23,996 bases of DNA from a virus, in IMG/VR virus record IMGVR_UViG_3300025872_000301, positions 1-23,996 of that record. One strand, 5' to 3'. The notes beneath the pieces are model-generated. The model worked only from the letters and a program-made list of their open reading frames with translations, did not search any database and was not told the origin of the DNA. This document shows, piece by piece, positions 5,133 to 23,996 of this stretch (its first letter is position 1; every line of letters begins with the position of its first letter). The translations under genes and the position numbers were made by a program.

Positions 5133-5522
5133 TTGGCACTGACCGCCCAAGCGACAGCCGGATCGGGCAGGGGGAACGGTGGTACTTCGTCGATGGTGGT
5201 AAAGGCCATCAGAACGGTAACTGCTCCGTTCAGTGACAACGTGTTAGTGTGGCGGCAGTTAGGTTCGGACTCCACCGCCTGTGGCACTTTCATCATCAAC
5301 AACGGCCCGGACGGAATCAACAGTACCGACTCCCCGATCATAAACATAGCGATCGACGCCGGCAGTTGGGGGGAAGTTGACAACGGTTCGATCTGCTTGA
5401 ACTGGAGAGGTTCCTGTTACCTGCAGGGGGTACCCCCAAGCAGGATTTACTTCGCTCGTCAGTCGCCGGCGACTGGTTTCGCAACTGAAGATCTCAGGAT
5501 CAAGTACATTACTTACAGGTGA
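5133..5522 (+). CDS. Small beta-rich structural protein, first of a tandem paralogue pair
   Basis: TTG start at 5133, one base after the preceding stop, with GGGAG upstream. The 129-aa product looks all-beta, rich in Gly, Ser, Thr and Asn, and ends in RIKYITYR. It is clearly related to the next gene: both share STACGTFIINN / NACGVFLIND, then DNGSICL / DTGSIEL, PPSRIYF / TPNRVYV and the final YITY. This copy is longer by an insertion in the middle and keeps three Cys where the second has one. Placed before the protease and capsid genes, it may be a decoration or head fibre subunit; no family recognised. Confidence 0.7.
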   Translation: MALTAQATAGSGRGNGGTSSMVVKAIRTVTAPFSDNVLVWRQLGSDSTACGTFIINNGPDGINSTDSPIINIAIDAGSWGEVDNGSICLNWRGSCYLQGVPPSRIYFARQSPATGFATEDLRIKYITYR

Positions 5523-5525
5523 ACC

Positions 5526-5855
5526 ATGGCACTAGTAGCAGGAGCAGTTGGAGGCGTGGGTTGGTCTTCTTCCATGAGAGTGAAGAAGATGGGGTCTTTG
5601 TCAGGCATCGCGGGGTCGTACGTTCAACTAGAGAACGACGCCAACGCTTGTGGGGTGTTCCTGATCAACGACGCCGGCGCGAGCACCACCCTGTACGTGG
5701 CCGTCGCTGACAGTGCCCCGACTGGCGACACTGGTTCCATCGAACTCTCCCTCACTGGAGCCGTGTACCTTCACAACACCACCCCGAACCGGGTGTACGT
5801 GAAGAGGGCCAGTGGAACGAACACCGTCACCGTGAGGTACATTACTTATGTTTGA
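5526..5855 (+). CDS. Small beta-rich structural protein, second of a tandem paralogue pair
   Basis: ATG at 5526, three bases after the stop of its paralogue; 109 aa. It is predicted to be a compact beta sandwich: ACGVFLINDAGASTTLYVAV, then GSIELSLTGAVYL and RVYVKRASG, ending VRYITYV. Codon use here is closer to the optimal capsid type than in the first copy, which suggests it may be the more abundant product. The ATG of the protease gene lies inside its last codons (ATGTTTGA, 8-nt overlap), so translation of the two is likely coupled. Function is inferred only from position in the head block. Confidence 0.75.
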   Translation: MALVAGAVGGVGWSSSMRVKKMGSLSGIAGSYVQLENDANACGVFLINDAGASTTLYVAVADSAPTGDTGSIELSLTGAVYLHNTTPNRVYVKRASGTNTVTVRYITYV

Positions 5856-17871: not shown

Positions 17872-18732
17872 ATGGCAAAGGTAAAGATTCCGCAGTTGAA
17901 GGTATTGTCTCCGGTGGAGACAGTTCCGGTCATGTCAGAGTTCGAGTCTTCATTGATCACGGCCCCGAAGATCATGCTCCCGAAGGGGTACCTATCTCCA
18001 TCGCAGATCGACATGTACCTGCGTTGCCCCATGCAGTACAAGTTGCGGTACGTCGACGGGAAGATTTCTCCCCCGGGAATCGCACTGGTGGAGGGTTCAT
18101 CTCATCACGAGGCGCTTGCCACCAACAACTCCAACAAGATCAAGACCGGCGAGGACTTGAAGGAGTCTGACGTGGTGGACGCCTTCGCCGCTTCCTTCGA
18201 GAAGCGGAAGACTGAAATCGAGGACTGGGAGGGTGAGTCGACCGATGACGTGATCGGGCGGGGCCGGAAGATGATCAAGGCATACATGAACGATTTCGCC
18301 GGTCAGTTTAGGCCGGTGAAGCAGGAGTTCGACGTGACGGCGAAGGTCGGTGACGTCGAGGTGCGCGGGATCACCGACGCGTCCGGGGCCGTGAAGGACC
18401 GCCCCACCATCGTCGACTACAAGACGGTTAGCAGGTCTAAGAGTCAGGCCGAACTAGAGTCGAGTCTGCAGTTGTCGTTCTACGCGATGGTCGAGTCCGA
18501 GACCGGTGACACCGATTTCGACGTCGGTTACGTCAACCTGCTGAAGTCCGGCAAGGTGAACCCTCAATTCATCGGGTACGACGCCAAGAGGGTGAAGTGG
18601 TTCAGGGCCGTGGCCCTGTCCGTGGCCAACGCCATCAGCCTAGGCAACTTCCCCCTTACTGCTCCGGACTCGTGGGGTTGTTCAGAGAGGTTCTGCGGTT
18701 ACTGGCGTCAGTGCCGTGGGTCGTGTCGCTAA
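17872..18732 (+). CDS. RecB/Cas4-like PD-(D/E)XK exonuclease, 286 aa
   Basis: Nuclease of the RecB/Cas4/AddB-like PD-(D/E)XK superfamily, likely acting on DNA ends in replication or recombination. Seen: LSPSQIDMYLRCPMQYKLRY (41-60) with Cys52, GSSHHEA (76-81), GITDASG (167-172) with Asp169, IVDYKT (180-185) with Asp182 and Lys184, and QLSFYA (200-205). A C-terminal cluster, Cys270, Cys275, Cys281 and Cys285, with Cys52 gives the 4Fe-4S layout known in Cas4 and AddB. AGGAG lies six bases upstream of ATG 17872. This is first in the replication block. No helicase fusion is present. The Fe-S assignment is inference. Confidence 0.85.
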   Translation: MAKVKIPQLKVLSPVETVPVMSEFESSLITAPKIMLPKGYLSPSQIDMYLRCPMQYKLRYVDGKISPPGIALVEGSSHHEALATNNSNKIKTGEDLKESDVVDAFAASFEKRKTEIEDWEGESTDDVIGRGRKMIKAYMNDFAGQFRPVKQEFDVTAKVGDVEVRGITDASGAVKDRPTIVDYKTVSRSKSQAELESSLQLSFYAMVESETGDTDFDVGYVNLLKSGKVNPQFIGYDAKRVKWFRAVALSVANAISLGNFPLTAPDSWGCSERFCGYWRQCRGSCR

Positions 18733-18764: not shown

Positions 18765-19121
18765 ATGGTAGGGTACGAATACAAGGTCGTAGGGAGCCCA
18801 GTCGCGATCGACGGGGACACGATCGACGTGGTCGTTGACTTGGGGTTCAGCATCAACGTCAAGCAACGGGTAAGGTTGCTCGGGTTGGACACCCCTGAGT
18901 TGAACTCGTTCGATAAGTCCGTGAGGGACAGGGCGTTAGCGGCTAAGAAGTTCACGTCCGACTGGATCGAGGCGGCGGGTTCCGGCATTACAGTGAAGAC
19001 ATACAAGGACGACAAGTACGGCAGGATTCTTGCCGAACTCAGGTCCGGGGGTGTCACCTTGAACGACTTACTCCTCGAGAACGGACACGCCGTCCGTTAC
19101 AACGGGGGGTCTAGGTCATGA
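18765..19121 (+). CDS. Thermonuclease-like (SNase) protein, 118 aa
   Basis: Staphylococcal-nuclease fold protein. DGDT (residues 16-19), VRLLGLDTPE (36-45) with Asp42 and Glu45, and KDDKYGR (81-87) with Arg87 are the conserved calcium-site and catalytic motifs; all key residues are present, so it should be an active nuclease. Length is compact. No signal peptide is seen, so it is cytoplasmic, perhaps for degradation of host DNA or for processing of DNA ends. TTGGAGGT gives a good ribosome binding site before ATG 18765. Its stop shares bases with the next start (ATGA). Confidence 0.88.
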   Translation: MVGYEYKVVGSPVAIDGDTIDVVVDLGFSINVKQRVRLLGLDTPELNSFDKSVRDRALAAKKFTSDWIEAAGSGITVKTYKDDKYGRILAELRSGGVTLNDLLLENGHAVRYNGGSRS

Positions 19122-19579
19122 CGGACTGGTCTTCCGTGGGCAGGAAATCCCGAAGGAAGGGCAAGGCGTTTGAGCAGGAGGTCGCCCGTTACCTGACTGC
19201 GGTGTCCGGCGAGAAGTTCACGTCCACCCGCAACTCCGGCCGAACCGACTTGAAGGGGGACATTTACTGCATGTCTACGCCCAGTCGTTGGGTGGTGGAG
19301 TGCAAGGATAGGAAACTCTCCATCAAGGCGTTGATGTCGGGCTCCACGTGGGTGCACGAGGCGATCATGAAGGCTAGCCGGGAGGCTAAGAGCGTGGGCG
19401 CCGATTCTCCCGTCATGTTCGTAAAGGCGGATGGCGTGGTCTTCATCCATTGCCGATCGATCTCTTATGTCAATATGCTCCACCGGCACAGGTTTATTCC
19501 AGACTGTGAGGTCAGGGATGTCAATGGAAGAATCTGGTGGCGAGTGGTCCTCGGCCGTCCGCAAGGCACAACTGGGTGA
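19118..19579 (+). CDS. PD-(D/E)XK endonuclease, Holliday junction resolvase-like, 153 aa
   Basis: The N-terminus RRKGKAFEQEVARYL, then TRNSGRTDLKGDIY and WVVECKDRK match the Hjc/PDDEXK pattern: a basic-helix Glu (Glu19/21), Asp48 in GDIY, and Glu61-Cys-Lys63. Such phage enzymes resolve branched DNA before packaging. The C-terminal part is beta-rich with Trp/Arg (RIWWRVVLG). ATGA overlap with the nuclease upstream and a 62-nt overlap with the sigma-like gene. The exact family (resolvase or other endonuclease) is not determined. Confidence 0.75.
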   Translation: MTDWSSVGRKSRRKGKAFEQEVARYLTAVSGEKFTSTRNSGRTDLKGDIYCMSTPSRWVVECKDRKLSIKALMSGSTWVHEAIMKASREAKSVGADSPVMFVKADGVVFIHCRSISYVNMLHRHRFIPDCEVRDVNGRIWWRVVLGRPQGTTG

Positions 19580-20093
19580 CTTCGACGCCCTGTACCTGTT
19601 GGTGACTCCGGTGCTGACGTCGGTTGCCCGACGCATAGCCTCGCAGTGTGTTGAAGATGCCGTGCAGTGCGGCGTCGTCAAGATCTGGAGGAACGTTGGT
19701 TACGTCGACCTCAGCAGGGAGGCGACCGTCAAGGCTTTGGTGATGAAGATAGGCGTTCGGGCGATGCGCGACGAGGTCAGGAAGGTCCTCAGTAAGTCCA
19801 AGGAAGTGGGGACTGAAGACCTAGACCTCAGCCCCGGCCGGCAATCGGACGAGAGGTGTTTGTCATTCCACGGTCCAGTCTTGGAGGAGTACGTAAAGTT
19901 CTACTGCGAGACCGGTTCCTTCGTGGGAGTTCACGTCGAGGTCGCCAAGCGGCTGAAGAGACCGGTCGGGGAAGTACAGTCGGAAGCCCGTAGACAGGCC
20001 AAGGCACAGGCCGAGGCTCAGGGCTTCGAGGTGAGGTGCCTAGATGACTTGTTCGATTCCATTGTACGCGGTAGACGTGGTCCATCCGGGTGA
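19518..20093 (+). CDS. Sigma-70-like transcription factor, 191 aa
   Basis: ATG 19518 (or 19524, which has AGGGA in front) lies inside the endonuclease gene. Residues about 20-65 resemble sigma region 2: GDFDALYLLVTPVLTSVARR, then VEDAVQCGVVKIWRNVGYVD, the ECF-type A-x-D-x-x-Q-x-x-x-x-x-x-W pattern. Residues about 140-170 (VHVEVAKRLKRPVGEVQSEA) have the spacing of a region 4 helix-turn-helix. In phages such proteins usually direct host RNA polymerase to late genes. The 50-nt overlap with the polymerase gene is large and links their expression. The region 4 call is weak. Confidence 0.65.
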   Translation: MSMEESGGEWSSAVRKAQLGDFDALYLLVTPVLTSVARRIASQCVEDAVQCGVVKIWRNVGYVDLSREATVKALVMKIGVRAMRDEVRKVLSKSKEVGTEDLDLSPGRQSDERCLSFHGPVLEEYVKFYCETGSFVGVHVEVAKRLKRPVGEVQSEARRQAKAQAEAQGFEVRCLDDLFDSIVRGRRGPSG

Positions 20094-22215
20094 CTTTAGG
20101 TCGGTCATTCCCGACCAGTTCGAACTGGCGGCCGTTGGCGATCACGTCGCGGGTGTGACGGTGGCACTGGGAAAGAAGGCCGCCGAGAAACTGTTGGGCC
20201 GGCCGGTGAACATGAAGAAGGACGTGGGTGAGAGGTTTGTCCTCGACTCGGGGGTGGTGGTAGTTCAACACCACCCGGTGAAGATCGTGGAGGCCAGTAA
20301 GGAGAAGGGGGGCGCGGCCGAAAGACTAGTCGAGTCTTGGGTGGACGTGTGGGAGTTCGCCCTTGAACTGTCCAAGGGGGAGGAGACGGAAGTACCCGAC
20401 GTAGCCCTCATCACCGACACCGACCAGATATTGTCGGTGTTGTCTGAGATCAGGGATAACCCGAGGTACGTCGCCTACGACTACGAGACGTGGGGAGACG
20501 CCAACGCCCTCCGCCCCGAGTTGAACTCGGACTTCAAGATCTTGACCGTGGGACTGGCCTTTGATGACGACGAACTTGGGCCGGTTGCGTTGGCTTTCCC
20601 GGTCGAGCATCCGGCGGCCGGGGTGGACTATGCGTCGGTCCTGTCGGCGTGGAGGGAGGTATTGGAGACGTGCCCCACCTGCGCACATCACTGTAAATAC
20701 GAGCACAAGGTGAACCTGAGGAAGTACGGGAAGTCTTGGCTTGCCGACGACACCATGTTGGCCAGTTACGTGATGGAGGAGGCCGCCAGTCATTCGCTAT
20801 CTTCGTGCATGAAGAGGTATGGCATACGTTGGGGCCACAAGAACGACGGGATCGGAGAGGACCCGATGTCGGCGAAGATCACCGACCTCCTCCGCTACAA
20901 CGGACTGGACGCATTGGCCACGCTAGAGTTGAAGGCGAAGATGTGCGCCAAGATGGATAAGGAGCAGGTTGGTGTTTGGGGGATGGAGTGCGAGTTCGCC
21001 CTCGGTCTGGCCAAGTTGGAGGACACCGGGATAGCGTACGACCCGCAGTCTCTCGTCGATGTCAGGATCAAGTTGGCGGCCGAGGTGGAGGCGGCGCGTA
21101 GGGCGGTGTTCGAGTCTCCTGAGATCAAGGAAGTCGAGAAGCACTTCGGAAGAGAGTTCAACTCGAAGAGCAACCCGATGATGCAGCACCTAGTCTTCAA
21201 GGTGCTTAAGGAGAAGATCCGTGGTAGGACTCCCTCAGGTTCACCCAGTCTAGACAAGCGTGTACTCGAGAAACTGGAGGAGAAGCATCCCGTCCTCAAG
21301 GCACTGGCGTCTTGGAGGTCTAGGTCTGCCATGATCACCGGGTTCGTAGACAAGTGGTCCCAATACGTGTCTCCCTCCGGTCTCATGCACGGGCAGTTCA
21401 GCCAAGCCGTTACCATGACCGGCCGCCTCTCCAGTACGGAACCCAACTTTCAGAACATACCCAAGAACTCCATCGTCAAGTCAGTGTTTGTAAGCAGATC
21501 CGGCGGTTGGCTGATCGCCGGCGACTACGCTCAGCAGGAGCCTAGACTGGTGGCCGGGATCAGCGGGGACGAGAAGATGAAGTCGGCTCTGAATGACGGA
21601 CTTGACCTGCACCGTTTCGCTGCCAGTGAGATCTTCGGGGTCAAGTTCGAGTCGGTAGACGACAAGCAGCGCGACGTCGGGAAGCGGATGAACCTAGGTA
21701 TCATCTATGGTCAAACCGAGTACGGACTGGCTCAGAAGACTGGCATGAGTCTGCCGGACGCCCGGGCCCTTCTCAAGCGATACGACGTTGCCTTCCCGGG
21801 TGTGGCCCGGTGGAAGCAGGAGCAAGTGGCGTTCGCCGTCCGGAACGGCTACGTCAGTGACCTGTTCGGGTCCCGCCGGCACTTGCCCGACGTGTGGTCG
21901 AACGACGAGGCTACCCGCCACCGCGCCTACCGTCAGGCCGGCAACTCTCCGATCCAGTCCACCGCCGCGAAGTTGACCATGCTGTCCCTGTGCATGATGC
22001 AAGAGAGGTTGTTTCTGAAGGGTAGCGTCATCATGCAGGTCCACGACTCCGTGGTGATCGACGTCCCCGACCGGTGGCTCGATCAAGGTCTCGAGATCTT
22101 GAGGGAGTGCATGTTGATCCACAACGAGATGCCGTACTGGGAGCCCCGGGGCGTTCCGTTCAAGGTGGACGTGAAGGCCGGTCTGAACCTCAAGGAGATG
22201 TACGATGTCAAGTAA
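20044..22215 (+). CDS. dpoZ: Family A DNA polymerase with 3'-5' exonuclease (candidate DpoZ)
   Basis: 723 aa. Residues about 35-85 look like the C-terminal half of a uracil-DNA glycosylase (GVTVALGKKAAEKLLGRP; QHHPVKIVEA). Then the 3'-5' exonuclease: Asp146/Glu148 (AYDYETWG), a Glu220 in place of the usual second-motif Asp (CKYEHK), and Tyr285/Asp289 (YNGLDA). The polymerase domain has TGRLSSTEPNFQNIP, motif A (DYAQQEPR, Asp494), motif B (Arg543, Lys547, Leu551, Tyr555) and motif C (QVHDSVV, Asp668). No 5'-3' exonuclease. Position 762 of E. coli Pol I is Leu here. The symbol is proposed only because purZ lies close downstream; the sequence does not itself prove 2-aminoadenine preference. ATG overlaps the sigma-like gene by 50 nt. 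Confidence 0.85.
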   Translation: MTCSIPLYAVDVVHPGDFRSVIPDQFELAAVGDHVAGVTVALGKKAAEKLLGRPVNMKKDVGERFVLDSGVVVVQHHPVKIVEASKEKGGAAERLVESWVDVWEFALELSKGEETEVPDVALITDTDQILSVLSEIRDNPRYVAYDYETWGDANALRPELNSDFKILTVGLAFDDDELGPVALAFPVEHPAAGVDYASVLSAWREVLETCPTCAHHCKYEHKVNLRKYGKSWLADDTMLASYVMEEAASHSLSSCMKRYGIRWGHKNDGIGEDPMSAKITDLLRYNGLDALATLELKAKMCAKMDKEQVGVWGMECEFALGLAKLEDTGIAYDPQSLVDVRIKLAAEVEAARRAVFESPEIKEVEKHFGREFNSKSNPMMQHLVFKVLKEKIRGRTPSGSPSLDKRVLEKLEEKHPVLKALASWRSRSAMITGFVDKWSQYVSPSGLMHGQFSQAVTMTGRLSSTEPNFQNIPKNSIVKSVFVSRSGGWLIAGDYAQQEPRLVAGISGDEKMKSALNDGLDLHRFAASEIFGVKFESVDDKQRDVGKRMNLGIIYGQTEYGLAQKTGMSLPDARALLKRYDVAFPGVARWKQEQVAFAVRNGYVSDLFGSRRHLPDVWSNDEATRHRAYRQAGNSPIQSTAAKLTMLSLCMMQERLFLKGSVIMQVHDSVVIDVPDRWLDQGLEILRECMLIHNEMPYWEPRGVPFKVDVKAGLNLKEMYDVK

Positions 22216-22453
22216 GAGCAAGGCCGTGGTGGCCCAGTCTACCGACTCGGCAGTCGGAGCGAGACGTGTCTACGTCGCAATCGCGCGTACCGTTTCCCTT
22301 CCCGGATACGAGTCGGTAAGGGTGGAGTACGGCGAAGGAGATGAAGTCAAGTCAGGTGAGAGTCACGACGAAGTGCGTGACCGTCTCGTGGCGCGTGTCC
22401 ATGAGACTGCTTTCGAACTGGTCGAGGCACTGAAGGAGCAATTGAAGTCATGA
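22205..22453 (+). CDS. Small protein of unknown function, 82 aa
   Basis: ATG 22205 overlaps the polymerase stop by 11 nt. The middle, RVYVAIARTVSLPGYESVRV followed by EYGEGDEVKSGES, is a beta-hairpin-like segment, and the end is an amphipathic helix. I have an impression of similar small phage proteins next to single-strand binding proteins (pattern S-R-T-x-x-x-x-Y-x-S-x-R-V-E-x-G), but cannot name the family. Its stop overlaps the next start (ATGA). Probably a replication accessory, by position. Confidence 0.65.
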   Translation: MSSKSKAVVAQSTDSAVGARRVYVAIARTVSLPGYESVRVEYGEGDEVKSGESHDEVRDRLVARVHETAFELVEALKEQLKS

Positions 22454-23235
22454 TCGACAAGGATCTTCTCCGCAAGCAGTTGAAGGACGCTCAGGAGCGT
22501 CGCGCCACCGGGATGGTGGCGTACGTCAAGGAGGACACCACCCTGCGCATTCTCCCGTTCACTGATGCGTCGACCGGGAAGGCTCTCGTCGCCCGGGAGT
22601 TCCGTCAGTGGCGCCCCAGTGGCGAGGGACGGCCCGTCGCTCACCGTGGAAACTGGGGCAAGCCCGACCTGTTCGAGGTCGTTCGGCAGCAGGGGGCCGA
22701 GTTCCCTTGGCGCCCGACCACTGCGTACCTCGTCAACGGCGTGGACGTCGCTTCCGGCGATCAGGAACTCCGTACGTGGCAGTTGCCGGCCTCCGTCTAC
22801 GAGGCGATCGTCGAGATCCTCCTTGACGACGAGTTCGAGAATGTCCTCGACCCCAAGTCGGGCATGCCGTTCAAGATCAAGCGCTCGGGTACCGGGCTCA
22901 AGACCAAGTATTCCGTGATGGTCGGTCAGAAGGCCGTCGACGTCTCGAAGTTCGTCAAGCAGGTCCGTGATCCTCTGTCGGCCATCGAAGACCCCGGGTT
23001 GGCCCGTCAGGCTGACGCTCTCGGCGTCGACCTGTCGGAGTTCGACGTGGAGGAGTCTGATCCCGAGCCGGTGGCAAAGAAGAAGCCGACGAAGGCCGCT
23101 CCCGTGGCCGAGGAGACCGAGGACGAAGACGAGGGGGGCGACGAGCCCCTGTTCCCGCCGGCGGCTTCCACGGCCAAGCCGAAGGCCACCGGAGCGACTA
23201 GCATCCGCGACCTGCTCAAGGGAGGTAAGAAGTGA
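22450..23235 (+). CDS. gp32-like single-strand DNA-binding protein, 261 aa
   Basis: Probable replication SSB. The core (about residues 1-190) has WRPSGEGRPVAHRGNWGKPD, and the DPKSGMPFKIKRSGTGLKTKY segment resembles the phage gp32-type SSB pattern D-x-x-x-G-x-x-x-x-I-x-R-x-G-x-G-x-x-T-x-Y. The last about 60 residues are acidic and Lys/Ala/Pro-rich (EETEDEDEGGDEPLF), a protein-interaction tail as in SSBs. The codon use is of the strong-expression class, as expected for a stoichiometric protein. It sits between the polymerase and purZ. Its stop overlaps the next start (GTGA). Confidence 0.75.
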   Translation: MIDKDLLRKQLKDAQERRATGMVAYVKEDTTLRILPFTDASTGKALVAREFRQWRPSGEGRPVAHRGNWGKPDLFEVVRQQGAEFPWRPTTAYLVNGVDVASGDQELRTWQLPASVYEAIVEILLDDEFENVLDPKSGMPFKIKRSGTGLKTKYSVMVGQKAVDVSKFVKQVRDPLSAIEDPGLARQADALGVDLSEFDVEESDPEPVAKKKPTKAAPVAEETEDEDEGGDEPLFPPAASTAKPKATGATSIRDLLKGGKK

Positions 23236-23996
23236 TCGAACGAGGGGCAATCTGCGTCATCGACTCCCAGTGGGGGTCTTGTGGCAAGGGCAAGGTGGAA
23301 GGTGCGCTGTATCAGAAGTATCCCGACATTCAGGTCGGGGTGTCTGACAACATGCCCAACGCCGGCCACACCGTCTACGACGCCAACGGCGTCAAGCGCG
23401 TTCTCAAGGCTCTTCCCGTCTCCACCGCGTTCGGGCGCACTGGCGTCCTTGGTCCCCATGCCGCGTTCTACGAGTCCACGATCGGGGTGGAGTGGGACGC
23501 GCTCAAGGACTTGGGCGGGGTCCTGTACATCGACAAGATGGCTAGCGTGGTTCAGACCGCCGACAACATCAAGGAGATGAGTCTCGTTCAGAACATCGCG
23601 TCCACTGGTCAGGGTGGTGGTTCTGCCTCGATCCGGAAGATGGAGAGGCTTGGGCTCGGCACGTTGGCAGTCAACTACAAGCCCGACGATCCCCGCCGGC
23701 AGATCGTGATGTCGACCGCCATCTACGTACAGATGGTTGCTCGCCGGTCCCCCGTCATGCTCGAGGGATCTCAGGGGTTTGACCTCTCCTTGAATCACGG
23801 GCACCTGTACCCTCACGTTACCAGTCGTGACGTCACCCCGAACCGGATGCTAGATAATGCCGGACTCAGCCCGTTCGACTGCAAGGAAGTGATCGGAGTG
23901 GTCAGGACCTTCCCAATCAGGGTCGGGAACTATGGTGAGTTCTCGAGTGGCCCGTACTACCCCGATCAGGAGGAACTGTCGTGGTCGGACGTCTCC
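23232..23996 (+). CDS. purZ: PurZ (2-aminoadenine succinate precursor synthetase), partial
   Basis: Adenylosuccinate synthetase family, 255 codons visible, cut by the right edge (family members of this type are about 340-350 aa). GTG 23232 overlaps the SSB stop. Motifs: QWGSCGKGK (13-21) where PurA has QWGDEGKGK; the catalytic Asp is Ser16. NAGHT with His46 is kept, as are ASTGQGGG (123-130) and LEGSQGFDLSLNHGHLYP (177-194). The Asp to Ser (or Gly) change is the known mark of phage PurZ, which joins Asp to dGMP to make the precursor of dZTP. The sequence supports PurZ strongly; actual use of dGMP is inferred from that residue and the phage setting. Confidence 0.88.
   Translation, partial: MIERGAICVIDSQWGSCGKGKVEGALYQKYPDIQVGVSDNMPNAGHTVYDANGVKRVLKALPVSTAFGRTGVLGPHAAFYESTIGVEWDALKDLGGVLYIDKMASVVQTADNIKEMSLVQNIASTGQGGGSASIRKMERLGLGTLAVNYKPDDPRRQIVMSTAIYVQMVARRSPVMLEGSQGFDLSLNHGHLYPHVTSRDVTPNRMLDNAGLSPFDCKEVIGVVRTFPIRVGNYGEFSSGPYYPDQEELSWSDVS

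Follow-up and report, generated by a model that had tools for sequence, protein, structure and literature searches.

Does the gene that runs off the right end of this viral contig encode a genuine PurZ, and if so, which set of partner enzymes does it work with? The window analysed here is the entire IMG/VR virus record IMGVR_UViG_3300025872_000301 (23,996 bp), for which a reading of the sequence alone had proposed a phage PurZ and a probable 2-aminoadenine (Z) genome. Since the window is the whole record and ends inside purZ, the missing C-terminus had to be taken from other contigs. The GTG start of the open reading frame overlaps the stop codon of the upstream single-stranded DNA-binding protein (SSB) gene, and a GGGAGGT stretch resembling a Shine-Dalgarno sequence is located immediately upstream. 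The gene and its diagnostic motifs are the following.

23232..23996, plus strand: purZ, codons 1-255 of 338, truncated at its 3' end by the end of the contig
23268..23294, plus strand: P-loop QWGSCGKGK, residues 13-21, by direct reading of the sequence
23277-23279, plus strand: TCT codon of Ser16, which replaces the catalytic Asp of PurA
23358..23372, plus strand: NAGHT block, residues 43-47 (N43, A44, G45, H46, T47), with contacts to the dGMP base and nucleotide tail by mapping
23760..23777, plus strand: LEGSQG block, residues 177-182, whose Q181 corresponds to S-2L Q190 in the dGMP pocket

The sequence-only reading had based its assignment on the replacement of Asp by Ser in the P-loop and on the conservation of the NAGHT and LEGSQG blocks, all of which are indeed present in the reading frame, and its identification of PurZ by the Ser mark is backed by profiles, pocket residues and trees. 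The window protein matches the NCBIfam model amino_Aden_PurZ (NF038379) with E 6e-50 and 170 bits, the cut-off of 300 bits not being applicable to a truncated protein, and it also matches phrog_1211 (E 4e-43) and, above the cut-off, Pfam Adenylsucc_synt. Its nearest solved structures are the PurZ proteins of phiVC8 (6fm1, E 8e-46) and S-2L (7odx), and among cultured phages the closest sequences, at about 37% identity, are PurZ proteins from Vibrio and Stenotrophomonas phages. A scan of genome contigs for a possible host returned only five MAG contigs with 31-37% identity, none of which assigns a host.

The NAGHT block aligns with N49-T53 of S-2L, whose roles in contacting the dGMP base and the nucleotide tail are given in the structure description (PMC8342488). 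The residues G15, S16, N43, A44, T125, R139, Q181, R230, V231, T266-T269 and R273 of the dGMP pocket are kept, and the comparison with the S-2L structure (PMC8342488) documents that nearly all dGMP contacts are retained, including the Val that excludes the 2'-OH and with it ribonucleotides. Within the tree set, the catalytic column contains S in every PurZ and PurZ0 and D in every PurA; Ser16 is found in the window and in all of its relatives, and Asp in E. coli PurA (Asp13) and in the viral PurA group. The window PurZ shares clade, catalytic Ser, dGMP pocket and the YPDQ insertion with the PurZ of phiVC8, BUCT555 (Stenotrophomonas) and S-2L, at an identity of approximately 37% to the first two and 33-35% to S-2L.

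The position of the full protein in a PurA/PurZ tree, which the sequence-only reading had named as a check, is in the PurZ clade and not with PurZ0 or PurA (100/96, 55-row tree), and a denser tree of 75 rows separates PurZ from the PurZ0 outgroup at 100/100 with the window protein inside PurZ. A single clade comprising the window family and PurZ0 was rejected in the first tree (p-AU 0.025). The initial placement of the family in a sparse tree (stem 3.06, beside an Ochrobactrum phage) is not used here, because denser sampling shortened the stem and moved the family into the clade of kinase loci described below. A PurA-type adenylosuccinate synthetase that raises the supply of adenine nucleotides is hardly credible, as Ser16, the YPDQ insertion and the tree all point to PurZ, even though the Pfam and PurA models match and several viral contigs encode an Asp-type PurA. 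Judged by its sequence, the window encodes a genuine PurZ, the enzyme of the first committed step in making 2-aminoadenine (Z) DNA, and its predicted activity is the condensation of dGMP with Asp.

Two short IMG/VR contigs extend rightward beyond the window, namely L003, which is 99.6% identical to it over 3.9 kb, and L004, which is 99.8% identical over 2.8 kb. Both supply the complete gene.

L003 3121-4137: complete purZ, 338 aa, 100% protein identity to the window part
L004 2057-3073: complete purZ, 338 aa, 100% protein identity to the window part

Past purZ, these contigs continue into the gene of a 158-aa P-loop protein in an overlapping frame, followed by a trimeric dUTPase and then a DnaB-like helicase. 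The P-loop protein resembles adenylate kinases and is termed the kinase in the following; the order purZ-kinase-dUTPase is kept in the relatives L005, L006, L074 and L075. In two relatives, of 41,571 bp (L052, L053, L082) and 42,598 bp (L079, L080, L075, L081), the ends overlap by 229 bp at 99% and by 123 bp at 100%, respectively, which is indicative of apparently complete, circularly permuted genomes. Both are catalogued as linear. Counterparts of most window genes were found in each of them.

The completed gene also gives access to the donor pocket. In the window family, T298 and D301 occupy the positions of S-2L N305 and Q308, which read the donor adenine (PMC8342488), and the stacking F299 is retained. 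Instead of an ATP-type donor pocket (N and N/Q), the window PurZ contains a pair that is PurZ0/PurA-like, from which we infer that the enzymes of its subfamily probably use GTP as phosphate donor. Given that PurZ0 enzymes use GTP and are still counted as PurZ-type synthetases (PMC12884076), the T298/D301 pocket does not exclude the PurZ reaction. Most other members of the clade of the window PurZ have retained N/N, so that T298/D301 looks derived inside the window family. A TFAD donor pocket was also observed in PurZ proteins of a DatZ/MazZ lineage (the L213 group: L213, L215, L216 and L219). Going by these residue patterns, the donor pocket appears to have changed from N/Q to D at least twice within PurZ, and the T298/D301 pocket represents a natural test of the choice of PurZ between ATP and GTP.

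The genes datZ and mazZ, for which the sequence-only reading had suggested searching to the right of purZ, are absent from the two apparently complete relatives by Pfam and by profiles. DatZ, MazZ, DUF5664 and DmtZ were not found in the 41.6- and 42.6-kb genomes with overlapping ends, and Pfam searches of the relatives with the YfbR-like (DatZ, PF12917) and MazG (PF03819) domains yielded zero matches. Locally built reference profiles of DatZ, MazZ, DUF5664 and DmtZ, which recover the reference phages as a positive control, detected none of these proteins in the window family beyond a marginal cross-match of the DmtZ profile with the dUTPase (E 0.008). Ten leftover unassigned reading frames of the 42.6-kb relative included no nucleotide enzyme. 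The earlier interpretation thereby stands with respect to the identity of PurZ and falls with respect to the standard partner genes; a kinase and a dUTPase are located downstream instead. An ordinary PurZ phage of the DatZ/MazZ type with its partner genes beyond the contig might be suspected from a window that stops within purZ, given that mazZ and datZ are located directly behind purZ in phiVC8, ZP6 and S-2L, but this scenario is very improbable: contigs with 99.6-99.8% identity show the kinase and dUTPase genes beyond purZ, and neither datZ nor mazZ was recovered, with Pfam or with local profiles that had a positive control, from the two relatives whose ends overlap.

Our IMG/VR scan comprised more than 450 PurZ loci, of which those nearest to the window family were read (the best up to 80 per scan), and the census set consists of 122 loci after dereplication at 90% identity, reference phages included, among the matches listed. 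Among these listed matches, 34 of the 122 have the kinase directly behind purZ and lack DatZ, DatZ is present in 57 (one of them also with the kinase), and none of the 20 PurZ0 loci harbors the kinase. Fisher's test of kinase versus DatZ over the 122 dereplicated loci gives p 5e-11, which, because the loci are kin by descent and were chosen by similarity, describes the strength of the association and not a probability over independent events. In almost every kinase locus, the frame of the kinase begins where purZ ends or close by. The kinase-bearing PurZ proteins form one clade (98/96, 75-row tree) that includes three loci without kinase, and the two genes are adjacent on contigs as long as 262 kb and in loci whose PurZ proteins have identities of 38-48%. 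Among the three kinase-less members is that of a cultured phage, Bacillus phage vB_BpsS-140, whose purZ neighbors show no match to the kinase profile: one is an HNH endonuclease, the other a reading frame with an ExoX-like domain as its sole match. L158, L179, L199 and L210 represent a PurZ clade of their own (100/96), in whose flanks DatZ, MazZ, kinase and dUTPase were undetected.

Of the 34 kinase loci, 25 also encode a pyrophosphatase with either of two folds, a trimeric dUTPase in 15 and an all-alpha dUTPase_2 in 10 of them; nine loci have no pyrophosphatase nearby. The dUTPase_2 domain is fused to the kinase in eight loci, and according to a local profile it is absent from the DatZ and PurZ0 loci of the set. 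The presence of two unrelated folds in the equivalent place, together with the fusion, argues for a task shared with the kinase. A side observation concerns a kinase sublineage (L144 9666-10515, L194 3778-4738) with purZ, kinase and then a dUTPase_2 gene. The next gene of L144 is nucleoside deoxyribosyltransferase-like (Pfam E 5e-5, below cut-off) and reminiscent of DmtZ, and L194 contains a similar-looking reading frame without Pfam match.

The trimeric dUTPase of the window family clusters with the dUTPases of Z phages (DutZ) with moderate support (90/82); it contains the RSST motif of DutZ, and all dUTPase motifs are intact. GRSST does not qualify as a signature restricted to DutZ, because RSST is also present in the dUTPase of a non-Z Vibrio phage. 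A search seeded with DutZ and the sequences of the family recovered PurZ in 13 of 17 IMG/VR loci (L093-L109), three being family members. The DutZ of PurZ0 phages turns dATP and dGTP into monophosphates (PMC12884076), and by analogy the dUTPase of the window family probably hydrolyses dATP/dGTP.

The sequence-only reading had further placed purZ in one block with a family A polymerase, an SSB and nucleases, all of which were recovered by Pfam or phrog matches.

17872..18732, plus strand: PD-(D/E)XK exonuclease of the replication block (Pfam PDDEXK_1 E 1e-24, phrog_69 E 7e-25)
20044..22215, plus strand: family A DNA polymerase with 3'-5' exonuclease and polymerase domains (Pfam DNA_pol_A E 1.5e-86)
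22205..22453, plus strand: small open reading frame between polA and ssb (phrog_5189 E 5e-4), with 77-83% identity in both relatives
22450..23235, plus strand: gp32-like SSB (phrog_1192 E 2e-17; Pfam gp32 E 9e-6, slightly under the cut-off), overlapping purZ

The nucleases of the window comprise a staphylococcal-nuclease-like protein (SNase) and two PD-(D/E)XK enzymes, and neither of the relatives with overlapping ends has the SNase gene (18765-19121). A sigma-70 region 2-like protein is encoded at 19431-20093 on the plus strand, overlapping polA, and a second one, with a weak match (E 2e-4), was found in L005 (11396-11974, minus strand) on the opposite strand past the primase. Large post-terminase proteins in L005 (16762-18084) and L006 (10117-11994) contain several repeats resembling FRSAAIKHTKTGQVFEGTWHEAAR. 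In the head/tail block of the window, the adjacent reading frames 5133-5522 and 5526-5855 look like diverged tandem copies of a small gene.

The family A polymerase (PolA) is the sole DNA polymerase identified in the window. It scores 92.7 and 52.5 bits against the DpoZ models, whose cut-offs are 500 and 350, and the insertions of the phiVC8 type are absent. Membership in DpoZ-1 was rejected in a 29-row tree (AU p 2e-51), in which membership in DpoZ-2 was not rejected (p 0.16). In a 50-row tree, PolA joins the polymerases of the kinase loci in a lineage of 22 that is set apart from DpoZ-1 and DpoZ-2 (SH-aLRT 96, short search), a grouping that may reflect common phage ancestry and not selection for Z. 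The lack of datZ and mazZ and a polymerase that, as tested, belongs to neither known DpoZ group indicate that the locus does not represent the standard DatZ/MazZ/DpoZ module.

Could PurZ then be active in a phage that uses Z merely as a partial or regulatory base and, having neither DatZ nor DmtZ nor a recognised DpoZ, makes mixed A/Z DNA? The missing DatZ and DmtZ, the polymerase with scores under the DpoZ cut-offs and no phiVC8-type insertions, and a dUTPase that could well be ordinary given its intact motifs are all compatible with this scenario. However, Z-DNA has been described for PurZ0 phages, which have DutZ but no DatZ (PMC12884076), the dUTPase of the window family contains a DutZ-like motif, and S-2L has no DpoZ and uses a PrimPol (PMC8065100). 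We therefore regard mixed A/Z DNA as rather unlikely. A 2-aminoadenine genome of the window phage, as suggested by its gene content, is likely.

The kinase itself is only weakly matched by Pfam ADK (E 0.002, below cut-off) and AAA_33. Its AlphaFold2 model, based on four sequences, has a pLDDT of 81 and its best matches among solved structures are adenylate kinases, and a search of a viral structure library with the model retrieved dNMP kinases and polynucleotide kinases. An alignment of 13 kinases with E. coli Adk revealed the conservation of the P-loop Lys (K13), R36, DGFPR and Q92, with small changes of DGFPR to DGMPR, DGVPR or DSMPR. The LID arginines 119/123 are kept in other homologues and do not align in the subfamily of the window, whose kinase is short (158 aa) with a reduced LID. 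It thus resembles the ADK family of adenylate and NMP kinases in its P-loop, R36, DGFPRxxxQ and CORE fold, and differs from it in its small size and reduced LID. In Adk, Q92 touches the adenine ring. This contact suits a 6-amino purine such as dZMP and does not favor guanine, which is the basis of our proposal of a dZMP kinase. The substrate is probably dZMP, going by the position of the gene and the Q92-type residue; AMP or dAMP would fit too. Three members queried against 50,697 phage records revealed no homologue of the kinase in cultured phages.

The alternative that survives best is a general dNMP/AMP kinase or a repair enzyme resembling 5' polynucleotide kinase, which was inherited with the locus and acts outside Z metabolism. 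The Pfam scores near or below the cut-off and the dNMP and polynucleotide kinases in the viral structure library would be in line with such an enzyme, and since the kinase loci form one clade, the adjacency may be inherited. On the other hand, purZ and the kinase stay neighbors where the PurZ proteins share 38-48% identity and on contigs of up to 262 kb. Kinase and DatZ hardly ever occur in one locus, adenylate kinases lead the solved-structure matches, and the pyrophosphatase partner swaps between two folds and is fused to the kinase in 8/34 loci. We consider a general kinase unlikely, while giving it somewhat more weight than mixed A/Z DNA.

In the most recent survey that we found (Poubanne 2026, PMC12884076), Z phages control their nucleotide pools by two strategies, and the window family corresponds to neither. 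Unlike phiVC8, BUCT555 and S-2L, it has a kinase and a dUTPase after purZ and no datZ or mazZ, T298/D301 in place of the N/Q pair, and a polymerase that the denser tree keeps apart from DpoZ-2. The PurZ0 modules of Arthrobacter (Wayne-like), Gordonia and Microbacterium phages consist of PurZ0, DutZ, DmtZ, DUF5664 and DpoZ-1. The window family is similar to them in its putative DutZ-type dUTPase near purZ, the lack of DatZ and the T/D donor pair, but it differs in the presence of the kinase, the absence of DmtZ and DUF5664, a PurZ outside the PurZ0 clade and a polymerase outside DpoZ-1. Taken as a whole, a genuine PurZ in a third class of phage Z modules, so far found only in uncultured viruses, is the reading that we consider probable.

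In such a module, for which we infer the steps upstream and downstream of PurZ, the dUTPase-type enzyme would cut dATP and dGTP to monophosphates (dGTP to dGMP) and thereby cover the work of DatZ plus MazZ. PurZ would couple Asp to dGMP, probably with GTP as donor in the subfamily of the window and with ATP elsewhere in the class, and host adenylosuccinate lyase would yield dZMP from its product. The phage adenylate-kinase-like enzyme would phosphorylate dZMP, a host diphosphate kinase would complete dZTP, and the family A polymerase, which forms a separate lineage, would incorporate Z into DNA. The full version of this proposal, an independent third class with PurZ, a dZMP kinase, a dATP/dGTP pyrophosphatase that derives from two unrelated dUTPase folds and is fused to the kinase in one sublineage, and a third Z-using PolA, in which the subfamily of the window has switched to GTP, is more tentative, and we place it slightly below an even chance.

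The survey leaves the phosphorylation of dZMP to enzymes of the host or to phage proteins yet to be characterised (Poubanne 2026, PMC12884076). A link between the kinase and PurZ was not found in the literature searched, which misses most subscription journals, so that an earlier description elsewhere is possible. The third arrangement, which is widespread in IMG/VR, offers a concrete candidate for this missing step, and its dNTP-removing enzyme represents a convergent choice across two folds. If the kinase acts on dZMP, the synthesis of Z-DNA would be less dependent on host kinases, and a dZMP kinase would, if true, be relevant for the understanding of host range and for attempts to establish Z-DNA in cells.
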